DNA from: an uncultured Cohaesibacter sp.
Lineage (GTDB): Bacteria > Pseudomonadota > Alphaproteobacteria > Rhizobiales > Cohaesibacteraceae
Assembly (NCBI RefSeq): GCF_963666525.1
Contig: NZ_OY762905.1
Span: 3,823,501 to 3,887,500 of the forward strand
DNA: 64,000 nt
Direction: 5' to 3'
The position numbers were made by a program, and so were the translations under genes. A model generated the notes under the pieces. That model saw only the letters and a list, made by a program, of their open reading frames with translations. It did not search any database and was not told the DNA's origin. Below are positions 9,692 through 14,745 of this stretch, one piece after another (position 1 is the first letter of the stretch; each line of letters opens with the position of its first letter).

Positions 9692-11374
9692 CTATTTGCG
9701 CGGCAGGGTGATGGTGGCAGCAAGCCCGCCCGATGGCCTGTTCACAAGGGTCACGTCACCGCCATGGCTGCGAATGATCGTTCGCGTGATCGAAAGGCCA
9801 AGCCCGACACCGCCAGTTTCCAGATTGCGCGATCCTTCCACCCGGAAGAAGGGGGTGAACACTTCCTCGAGCTTTTCGGCCGGGATGCCCGGACCATTGT
9901 CGCAGATCCGGATCTCGATGTGGCGCGGGGTGGCGCTGAGGAACAGATCGGCATTGCCGGCATAGCGCAGGGCATTTTCCGTGAGGTTGGTCAGGGCACG
10001 CTTGAGGCTGACCTGCCGGCAGGCAAAGGTCAGGTTGTCCGGGCCATCGAATGTGACATTGCGTCCAAGTTCCTGATAGTCCTCCGCCATGGAAGACAGC
10101 AGCGCTGCCAGATTGACGTCCCGCGTCTCTTCCTTGCTGGCATCCTCGCGGGCGAAGGCCAGAACCGCATCGGTCATCGCCTGCATTTCCTCAAGGGTCG
10201 CCTGAAGCTTTTCTCGCATTTCATCGTCATCGATGAACTCGGTTCTGAGCCGCAGGGTCGTGATCGGCGTCCGAAGGTCATGACTGACGGCAGCCAGCAT
10301 ACGGGTCCGGTCCTGCACGAAGCGCAGCAGTCGCTCCTGCATGGCGTTGAAGGCGCTGATGGTGCCGCGGATCTCAGTTGGTCCCTCCTCCTTGAGCGGG
10401 GCGATCGCCTCGCCACGGCCAAGCTTGCGCGAGGCACTTTCCAGCTCCCGCAAGGGGGCGGTCAGTTTGCGCACGATCAGCACGACTACCAGAATGATCA
10501 GGACAGCAGACACGATAAGCGAAACCAGAAACGGTCGGCCCCATTTTGCAGGCGGCGTAGGCACTTCCGACTGCACGATCAGCCATCGGCCACTGTCCAG
10601 CGGAACGGCTATTTTCATGTCCTGCGTCCAAACCGGACTATGGTCTGCAAAGCGCCGCCACTGGCGTCGGTCATCTACCCGGTTATTGCGACGCCCCAGG
10701 TCGTCTTCATTCATGGACTGCCCATTGCGCATTCCGAGACCTTGGCCCATTCCCTGCCCCATCCCGGGGCCCATCCCCAAGCCCGGCCCCATTCCGTGAC
10801 CTGCGCCCGTACCGAGACCTTGCCCCAAACCTTTGCCCTGACCGTTGCGCAAAGGACCATTGGGGGCCGGTGCAGGCTGCGGTGGAGCCATCATGTTGGG
10901 CATGTCATCTTCGGGGTCGGGTCTGGGTTGAGACAGCAGGAATGGATCATCCGGCAGCTTGCTGAAACGGACGGTATTGTCTGCAAGGCCAGCGCGCCGC
11001 TCCAGCCGGCTGGCAAGGCCAGCCTCGACACTGCCCTCTTCAGGCACGGACAGATCGGTTGAATCCTCCAGATCAAACCGGATGCCCTGTCCTTCTGCCG
11101 CCTTGAGGAAGCGGCCGTGCAATGTCATGTCGGTCTGGTTGAGCACACGCACCACCGAGGCGGTCCGATCGAGGATCTGGCCACGGGTCGCAGTCAAAGT
11201 GATGCTTTTGCGTTCGAAGGCAAACATGATGATCGAGATGATCTGCGCAGCCACCAACGCAAGCATCAGGGCGGCGATCAACTGTCCGGCAAGTGAACGG
11301 GGCCATAGCGTGAAACTGCGCCTGCGCGGGGCATTGGCATTCTGCGTGGCGTCCTGAGACACGGATCGGGTCAA
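9692..11374 (-). CDS. Sensor histidine kinase with a Gly/Met-rich periplasmic segment
   Basis: Membrane sensor kinase of 560 residues. TM1 is about residues 31-53, the periplasmic sensor about 54-280 and TM2 about 281-302. HAMP is about 303-355, the dimerisation box AAVSHDLRTP has phospho-His365, and an HATPase_c domain follows (NLTENALRY, DNGPGIP, GGVGLGLSI). The periplasmic domain contains a low-complexity block at residues 172-222 (10709-10861), rich in Gly, Met and Gln (GMGPGMGQGMGQGLGMRNGQ), which is unusual in a sensor. Its GMGQGMGQG core is also found in the EF-hand protein at 12562. The gene overlaps its response regulator by four bases. The inferred signal is a metal ion or an EF-hand partner. 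Confidence 0.93.
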   Translation of the reverse strand: MTRSVSQDATQNANAPRRRSFTLWPRSLAGQLIAALMLALVAAQIISIIMFAFERKSITLTATRGQILDRTASVVRVLNQTDMTLHGRFLKAAEGQGIRFDLEDSTDLSVPEEGSVEAGLASRLERRAGLADNTVRFSKLPDDPFLLSQPRPDPEDDMPNMMAPPQPAPAPNGPLRNGQGKGLGQGLGTGAGHGMGPGLGMGPGMGQGMGQGLGMRNGQSMNEDDLGRRNNRVDDRRQWRRFADHSPVWTQDMKIAVPLDSGRWLIVQSEVPTPPAKWGRPFLVSLIVSAVLIILVVVLIVRKLTAPLRELESASRKLGRGEAIAPLKEEGPTEIRGTISAFNAMQERLLRFVQDRTRMLAAVSHDLRTPITTLRLRTEFIDDDEMREKLQATLEEMQAMTDAVLAFAREDASKEETRDVNLAALLSSMAEDYQELGRNVTFDGPDNLTFACRQVSLKRALTNLTENALRYAGNADLFLSATPRHIEIRICDNGPGIPAEKLEEVFTPFFRVEGSRNLETGGVGLGLSITRTIIRSHGGDVTLVNRPSGGLAATITLPRK

Positions 11375-12138
11375 ATATCGTTCTCCTCATCGATGTCATC
11401 AAAGGTCGCGTCCTCGACCTTGCCGGTCACCTTGGCCGTGAAGACATAGCCACCTCCACGCACGGTCTTGATCATGCGGGGATTTTTCGGATCCTCCTCG
11501 ATCTTCTTGCGCAGGCGGGAGACCTGATTGTCGATGGAGCGGTCAAAGATCTGGGCCGTTCGGCCTGAAGTCAGATCCAGCAACTGGTCGCGCGACAACA
11601 CCATCGTCGGGCGTTTGAGGAAGGTGACCAGCAGCCGATAGTCGGCGGCACTCAACGGCACGGTAACGCCATCGGGGCTGACCAGCTCGCGCTGATGCAC
11701 ATAGAGGGTCCAGTCGTCAAAGGTCAGCACTTCGGGCTCGTTCGGCTTTTCCGCCTCGCGTGGCATCGACTGACTGCGCCGCAGTACCGACTTGATGCGG
11801 GCCAGAAGTTCGCGCGGATTGAAGGGCTTGGTCAGATAGTCATCTGCACCGATCTCCAGGCCGATGATGCGGTCGGTTTCTTCGCCGAGCGCCGTCAGCA
11901 GGATAACCGGGATATTCTCGTTCTCGCGCACGTAGCGGCACAGGGTAAGGCCATCCTCGCCGGGCATCATGACATCCAGCACGATCAGGTCGATCGCAGC
12001 CGTCTTCAGCATCTGGCGCATCTTCACGCCGCCGTCCGCATCGCTCACCCGGAAGCCATTCTTCGAGAGATACTTCGATAACAGCTCGCGAATGTCACGA
12101 TGATCATCCACCACCAGAATATGTGCAGATTGTTCCAT
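11371..12138 (-). CDS. OmpR-family response regulator
   Basis: DNA-binding partner of the adjacent kinase, 255 residues. The receiver is residues 6-120: acidic pair DD11-12, phospho-acceptor Asp55 in LIVLDVMMPGEDG, conserved Lys in YLTKPFNPREL. A C-terminal winged-helix domain follows (DRSIDNQVSRLRKKIEEDP, MIKTVRGGGYVF). The acidic end VEDATFDDIDEENDI is a small extension. It is first in the two-gene operon, with GGAG 9 bases before the ATG. It is divergent from the EF-hand gene at 12562, which makes the EF-hand genes its likely targets. Confidence 0.95.
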   Translation of the reverse strand: MEQSAHILVVDDHRDIRELLSKYLSKNGFRVSDADGGVKMRQMLKTAAIDLIVLDVMMPGEDGLTLCRYVRENENIPVILLTALGEETDRIIGLEIGADDYLTKPFNPRELLARIKSVLRRSQSMPREAEKPNEPEVLTFDDWTLYVHQRELVSPDGVTVPLSAADYRLLVTFLKRPTMVLSRDQLLDLTSGRTAQIFDRSIDNQVSRLRKKIEEDPKNPRMIKTVRGGGYVFTAKVTGKVEDATFDDIDEENDI

Positions 12139-12316
12139 GGCTGAAATCTCCGTTGCCTTTTTGCTCCCCGATGCGCATTGCGGGGGCCTCTGCCCGGTTG
12201 GGGCTTCTCTCCTTCGACATATCGTCGTGCCGCCATCCTATATCAATTATCAGATAACAGGAAACATGTTGCTGTCCAGAAAAATATACGTGTTTTTTCA
12301 AGCACTAACGAAGGAA

Positions 12317-12358
12317 ATTGTAACCGACTGTATCAATCTGCGAACCAGTTACACAGAG
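12317..12358 (+). promoter_or_regulatory. Predicted response-regulator site upstream of the first EF-hand gene
   Basis: ATTGTAACCGACTGTATCA (12317-12335) carries half-sites GTAAC and GTATC exactly 10 bp apart, as for OmpR-type regulators. ACACAGAG follows at 12351. The same arrangement, 18 of 19 identical in the first part, precedes the paralogous gene at 13840. Binding by the divergent response regulator is inferred. Confidence 0.5.
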
Positions 12359-12520
12359 AGACAATCGGACAGAATTCGACGATGGACCTGCGCCGGATTC
12401 GGCCTATCTTCATGTCATCGGCAGGCGATGAACCAGAGCATGGGACGCCGACCCGAAGAGCAACCGGCCCTGCGAAGTCTACAGGGCTTCATGGATACTG
12501 TAGAACGAACAAGGCTCGAT

Positions 12521-12539
12521 GGCCAATGAGGAATTGGCC
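12521..12539 (+). promoter_or_regulatory. 5'-UTR hairpin with GAGGA loop, first EF-hand gene
   Basis: GGCCAAT-GAGGA-ATTGGCC is a perfect 7-bp stem whose loop is a Shine-Dalgarno-like GAGGA. It ends 22 bases before the ATG, and the true ribosome site AGAGGA (12549-12554) lies outside it. The paralogue has the same hairpin with a compensatory change in the outer pair. Confidence 0.65.
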
Positions 12540-12561
12540 TCTGAGACAAGAGGAAAAACAA

Positions 12562-13605
12562 ATGAAAAACCTGACGAAAATCGCACTGACCGTAGCACTG
12601 ATCAGCGGCGCTTCCGCCATGGCAATGGGCGTTAATTCTGCATCCGCAAAGGGCTGGGGCAACGGTCCGGCAATGGGTGCCGGAATGGGGCCTGCTCAGG
12701 GGCAGCGCATGGATGGTCCTCGTGGCTTCCTTGATCTGAAGGCCCTCGATACCGACAACGACGGCACCCTGACCAAGGAAGAGCTGACAGCTGGTCTGGG
12801 CAAGAAAATTACCGACAACGATACCAACAGCGACAATGCCGTATCCCTTGAGGAGTTCAAGACCGAGTGGATGGCCATGACCAAGGATCGGATGGTTCGC
12901 GCCTTCCAGCGTTTCGACCGTGATGGCGATGGCAAGGTAACCCTTGAAGAATTCAGCGCTCCGGCGAAAGCCCAGTTTGACCGCCTTGATGCCAACAATG
13001 ACGGCAAGATCGACAACACCGACCGCCAGGCACGTCAGGGACAGGGCCCTCGGGGCAATTTCGATCAGCGTGATGGCCGTTGGGGTGGAGGTCCACGGGG
13101 TGGCCAGTTCCAGCAGGGCCAGTTCCAGCAGGGCCAATTCGGACCTCAGGGTGGACCGATGGGTGGCCCCGGCATGATGGGTGGCAAGATGCGTGGGCCA
13201 CATGGTGGTCAGTTCCAGATGGGCCAGTATCCTCAGGGCCAGTTCTCGCAGGGTCAGATGGGGCCACAGTTCGGTGGCCAATTCGGACCTCAGGGTGGAC
13301 CGATGGGTGGTCCCGGCATGATGGGTGGCAAGATGCGCGGGCCGCATGGTGGCCAGTTCCAGATGGGCCAGTACCCTCAGGGCCAGTATCCTCAGGGTCA
13401 GCTCCCTCAGGGCAATTTCGGTCAGCCGATGCCCGGTCAGGGTATGGGACAGGGTATGGGCCAGGGCCAGATGGGGCCGGTTCAGCCAGCTCCTGCACCA
13501 CAGTTGGCGCCTTCCGCCAACACCCCGGCACCAGTTGCCCCTCAGGCACCTGACGCAGCTTCCTTCGAAGCCCCGGTCCTTCCGCCAATCGCCATGGTGG
13601 AATAG
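12562..13605 (+). CDS. Exported four-EF-hand protein with Gly/Met/Gln-rich repeats
   Basis: 347 residues, starting at MKNLTKIALTVALISG, which follows AGAGGA by 7 bases. A signal peptide covers about residues 1-29. There are four 12-residue EF-hand loops: DTDNDGTLTKEE (63-74), DTNSDNAVSLEE (87-98), DRDGDGKVTLEE (119-130) and DANNDGKIDNTD (143-154). A low-complexity tail of about 150 residues rich in Gly, Gln, Met and Pro follows. It has two near-identical 48-residue repeats (144 bp; 13132-13275 and from 13276) containing GPMGGPGMMGGKMRGPHGGQ. A Pro/Ala C-terminus ends the protein. Calcium binding follows from the loops; the Met/His-rich tail may also bind metal. Paralogue of the gene at 14077. 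Confidence 0.85.
   Translation: MKNLTKIALTVALISGASAMAMGVNSASAKGWGNGPAMGAGMGPAQGQRMDGPRGFLDLKALDTDNDGTLTKEELTAGLGKKITDNDTNSDNAVSLEEFKTEWMAMTKDRMVRAFQRFDRDGDGKVTLEEFSAPAKAQFDRLDANNDGKIDNTDRQARQGQGPRGNFDQRDGRWGGGPRGGQFQQGQFQQGQFGPQGGPMGGPGMMGGKMRGPHGGQFQMGQYPQGQFSQGQMGPQFGGQFGPQGGPMGGPGMMGGKMRGPHGGQFQMGQYPQGQYPQGQLPQGNFGQPMPGQGMGQGMGQGQMGPVQPAPAPQLAPSANTPAPVAPQAPDAASFEAPVLPPIAMVE
13132..13412 (+). repeat. 144-bp in-frame tandem repeat inside the EF-hand gene
   Basis: GGCCAATTCGGACCTCAGGG starts at 13132 and again at 13276. The copies differ at a few silent or conservative sites and encode 48 residues each. The second copy grades into shorter PQGQ-type units. Copy number may vary between strains. 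Confidence 0.8.
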
Positions 13606-13741
13606 CACCGGCCGCCAAACCGGCAGATGCATGGCCAGCAGCGCGTCTGCGGCCCAAAAACGATGCGGGTCCAAAACCAGCTGGGAAGGCCCGCCACAAG
13701 CGCTCGATAGAAGCGCCAGATAAAACAGATGTAGCGCGTAG

Positions 13742-13778
13742 CCCCGGTGTCAGTTTTTGGCAGCGGGGTTTTTGTTTT
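13742..13778 (+). terminator. Rho-independent terminator after the first EF-hand gene
   Basis: CCCCGGTGTC, loop AGTTTTT and GGCAGCGGGG pair at 9 of 10 positions and are followed by TTTTTGTTTT. It separates the two EF-hand genes into independent units. Confidence 0.8.
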
Positions 13779-13839
13779 GAGGCTTTTTCCGCCGTTGAGC
13801 AGACATTGCGACAAGGGTGCGGGGGATAACCGGAGATGA

Positions 13840-13879
13840 ATTGTAACCGTCTGTATCAGAGCAAAATGCTGACACAGAG
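13840..13879 (+). promoter_or_regulatory. Predicted response-regulator site upstream of the second EF-hand gene
   Basis: ATTGTAACCGTCTGTATCA (13840-13858) followed by ACACAGAG (13872-13879) repeats the motif at 12317. GTAAC and GTATC are again 10 bp apart. The distance from the motif to the leader hairpin is also similar (194 versus 204 bases). Confidence 0.5.
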
Positions 13880-14033
13880 GGTGACAAAACTCTCCGGAAA
13901 CTCCCGAAAAATGTACTATTCTTGGATCATGATAAAACCATCGACCGAGCTGGCAAAGTGCCGGTCATCCGGTTGCAGGTCGGGCAGGACGAAGAGATTT
14001 GATCCGCCAGGGGACCTGGAAATGGAAAATGGA

Positions 14034-14052
14034 AGCCAATGAGGAATTGGCT
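14034..14052 (+). promoter_or_regulatory. 5'-UTR hairpin with GAGGA loop, second EF-hand gene
   Basis: AGCCAAT-GAGGA-ATTGGCT forms a 7-bp stem. Compared with the first gene the outer G-C pair has become A-T on both sides, a compensatory change, while the loop is unchanged. It ends 24 bases before the ATG; the ribosome site AGAGGA (14063-14068) is downstream. Confidence 0.65.
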
Positions 14053-14076
14053 GCCGCTTGCTAGAGGAACAAAGAG

Positions 14077-14745
14077 ATGAAAACCGCTTCGAAAATTGCA
14101 CTTGCAATCGCATTGGTCGCTGGCGTATCGGCAGCGTCCATTACTCTGAACTCGGCTTCTGCCGGCGGCTGGGGCTATGGTGGCTATGGCTGGAACAATC
14201 AGCAGGACGGTACCTGGATGGGCCGTCGCGGTGGCGGCATGCGTGGCGGCATGATGGGTGGCGGCATGCGCGGTGGCATGATGGGCCCCGGTGGCTACGG
14301 CTACAACCGTGCAGCAGGGCCGGCCTTCGGTGGCGCCATGATGCTGCAGCAGTTTGATGCCAACAAGGACGGCGTCTTGACCAAGGAAGAAGTCGACACA
14401 GGCTTCGCTGCGAAAGTCACCGAAAATGACAAGGACGGTGATAACGCCATCTCTCTTGAGGAGTTCAAGAATGAATGGCTGAAGATGACCCAGAACCGAA
14501 TGGTTCGCGGCTTCCAGCGTCTGGACAGCGACGCCAGTGGCAAGATCACGCCGGAAGAGCTCAAGAGCCATGCCGATGCCATGTTTGCCTTCATGGACAG
14601 CAATGGCGACGGCAAGCTTGATCAGAATGATGGCCCGCGCCGCGGCATGGGATATGGTCCAGGCTTCGGTCCGCGCTTCATGAATGGTCCAGTGCCAGCT
14701 CCGACGCAGCCAGTTCCGGCACCATCAGAGGGGTCTGCTCAGTAA
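14077..14745 (+). CDS. Exported four-EF-hand protein, Gly/Met-rich N-terminal segment
   Basis: 222 residues. A signal peptide (MKTASKIALAIALVAGVSAA) is followed by a Gly/Met/Trp-rich segment (residues 30-90) with repeated GGGMRGGMM units. The four EF-hand loops are DANKDGVLTKEE (94-105), DKDGDNAISLEE (118-129), DSDASGKITPEE (150-161) and DSNGDGKLDQND (174-185). A Pro-rich tail ends the protein. Loop spacing and sequence match the protein at 12562, so the two are tandem paralogues, but the low-complexity part is N-terminal here and C-terminal there. Predicted periplasmic calcium binder; role unknown. Confidence 0.87.
   Translation: MKTASKIALAIALVAGVSAASITLNSASAGGWGYGGYGWNNQQDGTWMGRRGGGMRGGMMGGGMRGGMMGPGGYGYNRAAGPAFGGAMMLQQFDANKDGVLTKEEVDTGFAAKVTENDKDGDNAISLEEFKNEWLKMTQNRMVRGFQRLDSDASGKITPEELKSHADAMFAFMDSNGDGKLDQNDGPRRGMGYGPGFGPRFMNGPVPAPTQPVPAPSEGSAQ

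Follow-up and report, generated by a model that had tools for sequence, protein, structure and literature searches.

Architecture of the locus

The window analysed here, 64,000 nucleotides of an uncultured Cohaesibacter sp. (assembly GCF_963666525.1, contig NZ_OY762905.1, positions 3,823,501 to 3,887,500; this genome, referred to as G000, is a single contig), encodes a sensor histidine kinase and an OmpR-type response regulator that are divergent from two genes for exported four-EF-hand proteins (Table 1). The four genes lie where an initial annotation had placed them, and the Pfam domains of all four products score over their gathering cut-offs; signal peptides were assigned by eye. Kinase and regulator show the domain order of an OmpR/EnvZ-type system (HAMP-HisKA-HATPase_c and Response_reg-Trans_reg_C). 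By NCBIfam, the kinase resembles EnvZ, CpxA (its second-best match, below cut-off) and CztS, yet reaches the cut-off of none of the 25 families shown, and nor does the OmpR-like regulator. Assignment to EnvZ and OmpR proper fell short of the equivalog cut-offs (208.6 vs 415 and 259.1 vs 331), and the kinase also stayed below that of the CztS/SilS/CopS heavy-metal family TIGR01386 (145.7 vs 292.55). Reading the translation bore out a Gly/Met/Gln-rich block inside the periplasmic domain of the kinase. Across relatives, this domain keeps a conserved frame that encloses a hypervariable segment, which is predicted to be disordered and referred to below as the loop. The predicted sensor structure had no PDB match by profile at E < 0.9 or by Foldseek at E 0.001.

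Each EF-hand protein has four loops with a spacing of 12-20-12 residues, and protein 2 is 94% identical to its counterpart in C. haloalkalitolerans (L037). Among 35 such sequences, D93, D149 and E160 are invariant and D97, E104, D151, D173 and D177 nearly so; between the second and third loops, the segment MVRxFQxxD is well conserved, with F145 and D149 invariant. A profile of these proteins retrieves calmodulins. The structural model was poor overall (predicted local distance difference test score of 62) and had no structural match at E 0.001. We also considered whether the proteins handle lanthanides in the manner of lanmodulin. A match to the LanM model reaches E 1.8e-11, and the 12-residue spacing within each EF pair agrees with that reported for lanmodulin (PMC11845868). 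Identity with lanmodulin was nevertheless rejected, as the scores against NF053806 were 44.3 and 29.2 vs a cut-off of 135, position 2 of the EF loops lacks proline and the middle pair is spaced by 20 residues; lanthanide handling is thus very improbable.

Table 1. Coordinates of genes and sequence features, numbered within the window
Feature	Position	Strand	Remarks
Sensor histidine kinase	9692..11374	-	TTG start overlaps regulator stop; HAMP, HisKA, HATPase_c
Gly/Met/Gln-rich block, kinase periplasmic domain	10718..10849	-	predicted disordered; interval between third helix and second strand
GMGQGMGQG in kinase	10739..10765	-	residues 204-212
OmpR-type response regulator	11371..12138	-	Response_reg, Trans_reg_C
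Operator 1 (TGTAACCGACTGTATC-N13-GTTACACAGAGAGACA)	12319..12363	+	putative; interval between regulator and EF-hand gene 1
5'-UTR stem-loop GGCCAAT-GAGGA-ATTGGCC	12521..12539	+	before EF-hand gene 1
Exported four-EF-hand protein 1, Gly/Met/Gln-rich tail	12562..13605	+	several EF-hand models
GMGQGMGQG in EF-hand protein 1	13441..13467	+	residues 294-302
Operator 2	13842..13886	+	putative; before EF-hand gene 2
5'-UTR stem-loop AGCCAAT-GAGGA-ATTGGCT	14034..14052	+	before EF-hand gene 2
Exported four-EF-hand protein 2	14077..14745	+	several EF-hand models

The linkage is conserved within and beyond the genus

All 18 Cohaesibacter genomes have EF-hand genes divergent from the kinase-regulator pair, a single one in 5 genomes and two in the other 13. 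The lack of linkage in relatives that the initial annotation had named as its refutation therefore did not occur. Outside the genus, we analyzed 77 loci, 16 and 60 of them from two lists of matches plus one plasmid (L128); because they were picked as good kinase matches, their counts describe this kinase family rather than all genomes. A kinase match at 1e-75 was present in 108 of 297 genomes of the order. A divergent open reading frame with at least two EF-like loops, called by a regular expression rather than a curated model, occurred in 51 of the 77 loci, or 47 after four doubtful ones had been dropped (L170, L174, L185 and L199), and the retained loci come from 12 families in addition to the window's own. 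In a tree of 91 kinase rows, seven of them Cohaesibacter, the EF label required 7 changes as compared to 29.1 with shuffled labels, so that the linkage should be old or repeatedly kept.

The position of the partner can be taken by other proteins. At L066 and L197, the divergent partner (L066:5246-5641 and its orthologue in L197) is a short exported protein that is rich in Met, Gln and Gly and lacks EF hands; both loci combine a Met-rich kinase loop with a good score for the operator described below. Two further distant loci, L184 and L064, have a PepSY_TM gene in this place, once fused to flavodoxin-type reductase domains.

A putative operator outlines the regulon

Upstream of both EF-hand genes, we found a putative 45-bp operator with the consensus TGTAWC-N4-TGTAWC-N13-GNNACA-N6-GACA, in which TGTAWC direct repeats ten bases apart are followed, after 13 bases, by a second pair facing them. 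It precedes all 31 linked Cohaesibacter EF-hand genes, 30 times exactly and once with a single mismatch. When up to 3 mismatches were allowed, the 18 genomes contained 34 distinct sites outside the locus, as compared to 10 matches over all 18 genomes for the reversed pattern. Sixteen of the 34 have at most one mismatch and precede PepSY_TM genes (13), EF-hand genes (2, in G016 and G005) or no gene that we could see (1, in G014). The four sites with 2 mismatches lie before a PepSY_TM gene (G016), an EF-hand gene (G017), a Ferric_reduct/FAD gene (G015) and a gene that is cytochrome-like by eye (G010). At 3 mismatches, EF-hand genes follow 5 of 14 sites (G000, G003, G006, G010, G012), the others being two RND adaptor genes, one ceramidase-family gene, one esterase-like gene and five places that are intragenic or lack a sensible gene. 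Throughout the genus, 14 of 15 short PepSY_TM genes carry a site with at most 2 mismatches just upstream, whereas the 9 long ones all lack it. Even at 3 mismatches, no site precedes several of the unlinked EF-hand genes, among them those at 1722717 in G011 and 4557112 in G002; the operator is therefore no general mark of EF-hand genes. The site in G014 (L080:3178-3222) is a perfect operator without a recognisable gene downstream, where a small open reading frame or an RNA may be encoded.

A profile built from the 31 linked sites only recovered 12 held-out places at E 0.01 or better, namely four EF-hand, four PepSY_TM, one ferric-reductase-like and one ceramidase-family gene and two places without a recognised gene. 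Weights from the same sites, applied upstream of the regulator in the distant loci, beat 40 of 40 Markov shuffles in 35 of the 47 EF-linked and 17 of the 30 other loci, and the operator thus seems to belong to the regulator family. Within Cohaesibacter, it seems to outline a regulon of EF-hand and PepSY_TM genes. Given linkage and a shared operator, the EF-hand genes are probable regulon members; the proposal in the initial annotation that they form the regulon of the pair is strongly supported at the sequence level by the linkage in 18 of 18 genomes and by the presence of the operator at every linked and some unlinked genes. As the putative operator sits between divergent genes, autoregulation is likely.

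The first half of the operator alone occurs at 87 sites in the 18 genomes, vs 18 for the reversed pattern. Such half-sites also precede genes for RND adaptors, outer-membrane efflux proteins, TRIC-like proteins (by eye), ceramidase-family proteins and many unnamed proteins. Those before an RND adaptor-pump operon (L073:5090, L074:4870, orthologues L081-L087, L118) and before an outer-membrane efflux gene (L101, L119) recur in several species, and MsrQ-like membrane proteins of the ferric-reductase fold are encoded downstream of others (L096, L113, L115, and a weak profile match at L212). These genes were left out of the regulon, as their sites lack the second half and may serve another OmpR-type regulator (L072:11837-12568). 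The pair to which this regulator belongs (L072:11837-13989, about 130 kb away) is divergent from a gene for a Gly/Pro-rich protein (L072:11003-11617) and has TGTAWC half-sites nearby; the layout is parallel, and the two systems may share half-sites.

These associations bear on the possibility of an envelope or oxidative-stress system, in which methionines of the loop would be oxidised and the regulon (PepSY_TM, ferric-reductase-like and MsrQ-like proteins) would repair or reduce. Consistent with it are the operator with 2 mismatches before the Ferric_reduct/FAD protein (L134), the first half-site before MsrQ-like proteins in G015, G005 and G016 (with a weak profile match, E 0.44, in G007) and the rank of CpxA among the matches of the kinase. 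The MsrQ score is 72.7 vs a cut-off of 130, however, MamZ scores equally high, and no more than a half-site is present at the MsrQ-like genes. We consider a stress system fairly unlikely.

A stem-loop precedes the linked EF-hand genes

Both EF-hand genes of the window carry, in the 5' untranslated region (5'-UTR), a stem-loop (CCAAT-GAGGA-ATTGG) that ends 22-24 nt ahead of the start codon and whose loop resembles a Shine-Dalgarno sequence. This 15-mer occurs exactly twice in the genome of the window and 25 times in the 18 genomes, 23 of these at the locus, whereas its reversed control had no match. The stem-loop or a close form was present at 28 of the 30 linked EF-hand genes read (one of the 31 was left unread), with a variant loop at the other two. 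Three of the seven stem pairs have changes on both sides and four never vary. It was not seen before six unlinked EF-hand genes (L089, L133, L137, L138, L139, L206).

Methionine content of kinase loop and partner co-varies

The stretch GMGQGMGQG, reported by the initial annotation for both the kinase and EF-hand protein 1, is indeed found in the two proteins, encoded by different codons. A shared 9-mer arose in none of 2000 composition shuffles and in 2 of 2000 doublet shuffles, and the longest DNA run common to the two genes is 10 bases, equal to the codon-shuffle mean; the match thus exceeds composition alone and does not reflect DNA homology. Relatives do not keep it: the longest peptide run common to kinase and partner is 8 residues for L039, and the remaining 16 Cohaesibacter pairs reach 2-5. 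Accordingly, we rejected the literal stretch, which is local only, as a meaningful shared sequence. To judge from the sequences, it is methionine content rather than this stretch that recurs across families in loop and partner.

Within the genus, nine genomes including that of the window are richer in methionine both in the loop and in the arms that accompany the EF-hand core of the partner, while in the other nine these parts are charged and Met-poor (loop, 8.4% vs 1.7%; arms, 7.7% vs 2.4%). Across 27 genus-level groups, from which the four doubtful loci were omitted, loop and arm methionine correlated with a rho of 0.53 (permutation p 0.0026), whereas two control regions, the sensor without the loop (-0.11) and the kinase C-terminus (-0.33), showed no correlation with the arms. 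All 6 groups with at least 6% methionine in the loop reach 6% in the arms, vs 7 of the other 21 (Fisher p 0.006). The co-variation persisted after tree correction (FastTree, midpoint root; 66 pairs, L194 being additionally omitted), with p = 6.8e-5 by phylogenetic generalised least squares at lambda 0.90 and p 0.008 under pure Brownian motion, vs p 0.21 for the sensor without the loop. Whole compositions of loop and arms were also similar (centred cosine 0.289, equalled in 0 of 5000 shuffles).

Several results weigh against a shared ligand as the source of this match. Control pairs showed a weaker excess in composition (0.10 to 0.14; 11 to 58 of 5000 shuffles as high), and among the groups lysine (0.54) and proline (0.39) correlated with the loop and also with the sensor lacking it. 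Corrected for the nine residues tested, the Brownian p for methionine is about 0.07. Under lambda, arginine, lysine, aspartate and glutamate also give p < 0.05, which all four fail to do under Brownian motion, and for lysine and glutamate the lambda result is significant with the control region as well. Loop methionine further tracks that of the EF core (rho 0.62), so the match extends beyond the arms to the whole partner. Finally, 21 of the 27 groups are not Met-rich in the loop, 14 being low in loop and arms and 7 having Met-rich arms with a low loop; with so many Met-poor members, copper cannot be the general ligand. Part of this would be expected if the EF-hand proteins were outputs only and the matching low complexity arose as a side effect of growing repeats or of genome bias, without shared ligand or contact. 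The fast variation of low-complexity arms fits such a view, as do the lysine, proline and whole-composition signals in control regions. Against it, after tree correction, partner methionine follows that of the loop but not that of the remaining sensor, and Met-rich arms are found in all 6 groups with Met-rich loops, vs 7 of the 21 others; we rate a mere by-product as rather unlikely.

Plasmid relatives lie in a copper context

A plasmid search that used the EF-hand protein of Hoeflea as query gave 66 matching records, including many near-copies, from which we sampled 14 annotated loci with a related EF-hand gene, Hoeflea included; one further record carried no annotation. In the stretch shown, 13 of the 14 encode a copper or heavy-metal P-type ATPase, the exception being Aestuarium, and 8 a multicopper or copper oxidase. 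These loci are not independent, since one EF-hand protein accession is common to Dinoroseobacter and Salipiger. A divergent regulator-kinase pair is present in 8 of 14 (Hoeflea, Marinovum, Roseovarius, Aestuarium, Gemmobacter, Aliiroseovarius, Ruegeria and a record labelled Dysgonomonadaceae). The motif E-M-x-E-M-H-x-A-M-M is common to 5 of the 7 plasmid sensors other than that of Hoeflea, with looser forms in Ruegeria and Gemmobacter; the partners read appear Met-rich by eye, and the plasmid branch is among the Met-richest. The operator score was positive in 4 of 6 plasmid intergenic stretches, without shuffle control. A plasmid search with the L144 sensor gave no match at 1e-12. On marine plasmids, six loci (L221, L222, L223, L226, L229, L232) place Met-rich EF-hand genes next to genes for copper or heavy metals and lack an adjacent regulator-kinase pair.

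Taken with the plasmid context, the co-variation of methionine makes copper or silver the likely ligand, at least for lineages rich in methionine. For the half of Cohaesibacter that includes the window, with about 8% methionine in both parts, the ligand would be copper. The initial annotation had proposed that the kinase senses divalent metal, directly or through the EF-hand proteins, and had pointed to calcium-responsive systems as precedents. In a calcium-responsive system, the kinase or the EF-hand proteins would sense Ca2+. The four near-canonical EF loops kept across families, with invariant D93, D149 and E160, and the retrieval of calmodulins are in line with this. Yet L066 and L197 retain layout and operator with a partner free of EF hands, L064 and L184 have PepSY_TM in its place, the plasmid context is one of copper or heavy metals, and the co-variation concerns methionine. 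Calcium sensing itself has no specific support, and we regard a calcium-responsive system as quite unlikely.

A model for an envelope metal response

The linkage, the shared operator, the methionine co-variation and the plasmid context are most consistent with an envelope metal-responsive two-component system that has EF-hand proteins as regulated periplasmic metal-binding accessories, a reading to which we assign about an even chance. According to this model, the kinase would read periplasmic metal or metal damage through a folded core bearing the disordered loop. The phosphorylated regulator would bind the 45-bp operator and switch on the EF-hand genes divergent from its own, others that are unlinked, and the PepSY_TM membrane protein, possibly a metal reductase. 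As the partner, an EF-hand core with Gly/Met or charged arms, would bind the same ligand as the loop, most likely Cu(I) or Ag(I) in Met-rich lineages, it could buffer the ligand and feed back on the kinase, much like CpxP, ZraP or SilE in their systems. More tentatively, and with the chances clearly against it, loop and partner may evolve in step, methionine serving copper or silver and charged residues something else, with the partner competing for or delivering the ligand and the EF core adding calcium dependence; the locus would then represent a widespread alphaproteobacterial unit.

Beyond the compositional results above, the model has to accommodate further observations. By eye, no metal or copper gene was recognised among the immediate neighbours of the window locus, and the sensor model lacks a structural match. 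When plasmids were searched with the kinase, only Hoeflea of the 8 loci opened carried an EF-hand gene, and by our weights the Hoeflea locus has no operator (7 of 40 shuffles as high). The role of PepSY_TM as a reductase is an assumption of the model. Because half-sites precede RND, outer-membrane and MsrQ-like genes, the stress interpretation also keeps some standing.

No description of this kinase-regulator/EF-hand unit was found in the full-text collection searched, which leaves out most subscription journals. As far as we are aware, the regulator is known for few EF-hand proteins of bacteria. For the present ones, it can be named together with a putative operator and an EF-hand target set, both in 13 families of the order to which the window genome belongs and on Rhodobacterales plasmids. 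In the Met-rich branch, copper or silver replaces calcium as the likely ligand, and the purpose of the EF-hand protein becomes a testable question.

Comparison with known systems

Among calcium-linked systems, CarSR and EfhP of Pseudomonas are a kinase system and an EF-hand protein of one organism, listed as separate proteins in one paper (PMC10574481); they are not the closest parallel in layout. UzcRS of Caulobacter, an alphaproteobacterial system for uranium, zinc and copper with envelope targets (PMC8963506), was rejected as the same system, since its motif CATTAC-N6-TTAA is unlike the operator found here (see also PMC12864828). A rhizobial OmpR-type pair with a divergent target is RetPC57/RetPC58 of Rhizobium etli, whose target comprises an RND pump and an outer-membrane protein (PMC7769827). 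Two plasmid kinases with this RND-divergent layout (L126, L127) fall inside our kinase tree, which does not contain RetPC57/58; the L126 and L127 loci have no operator within 5 mismatches.

Closer parallels are offered by two other arrangements. In the SilRS-SilE and PcoRS-PcoE systems of plasmid copper islands, a Met-rich disordered periplasmic metal-binding protein is under the control of a metal-sensing OmpR-type system. The locus described here differs in the added EF-hand core and in a kinase that scores under the CztS/SilS/CopS cut-off; neither EF-hand protein had a SilE or PcoE match in Pfam or NCBIfam at E 0.1, libraries that were not checked for a SilE model. In the CpxRA-CpxP and ZraSR-ZraP systems of enterobacteria, the gene for a periplasmic protein is found next to its activating system or divergent from it, and its product damps that system. 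Our EF-hand proteins had no Pfam match to the LTxxQ fold of CpxP, ZraP and Spy at E 0.1. The partner is an EF-hand protein rather than a member of the LTxxQ family, and the regulon differs. What the locus has in common with CpxP and ZraP is the layout, in which pair and partner gene diverge on either side of a putative site for the regulator.

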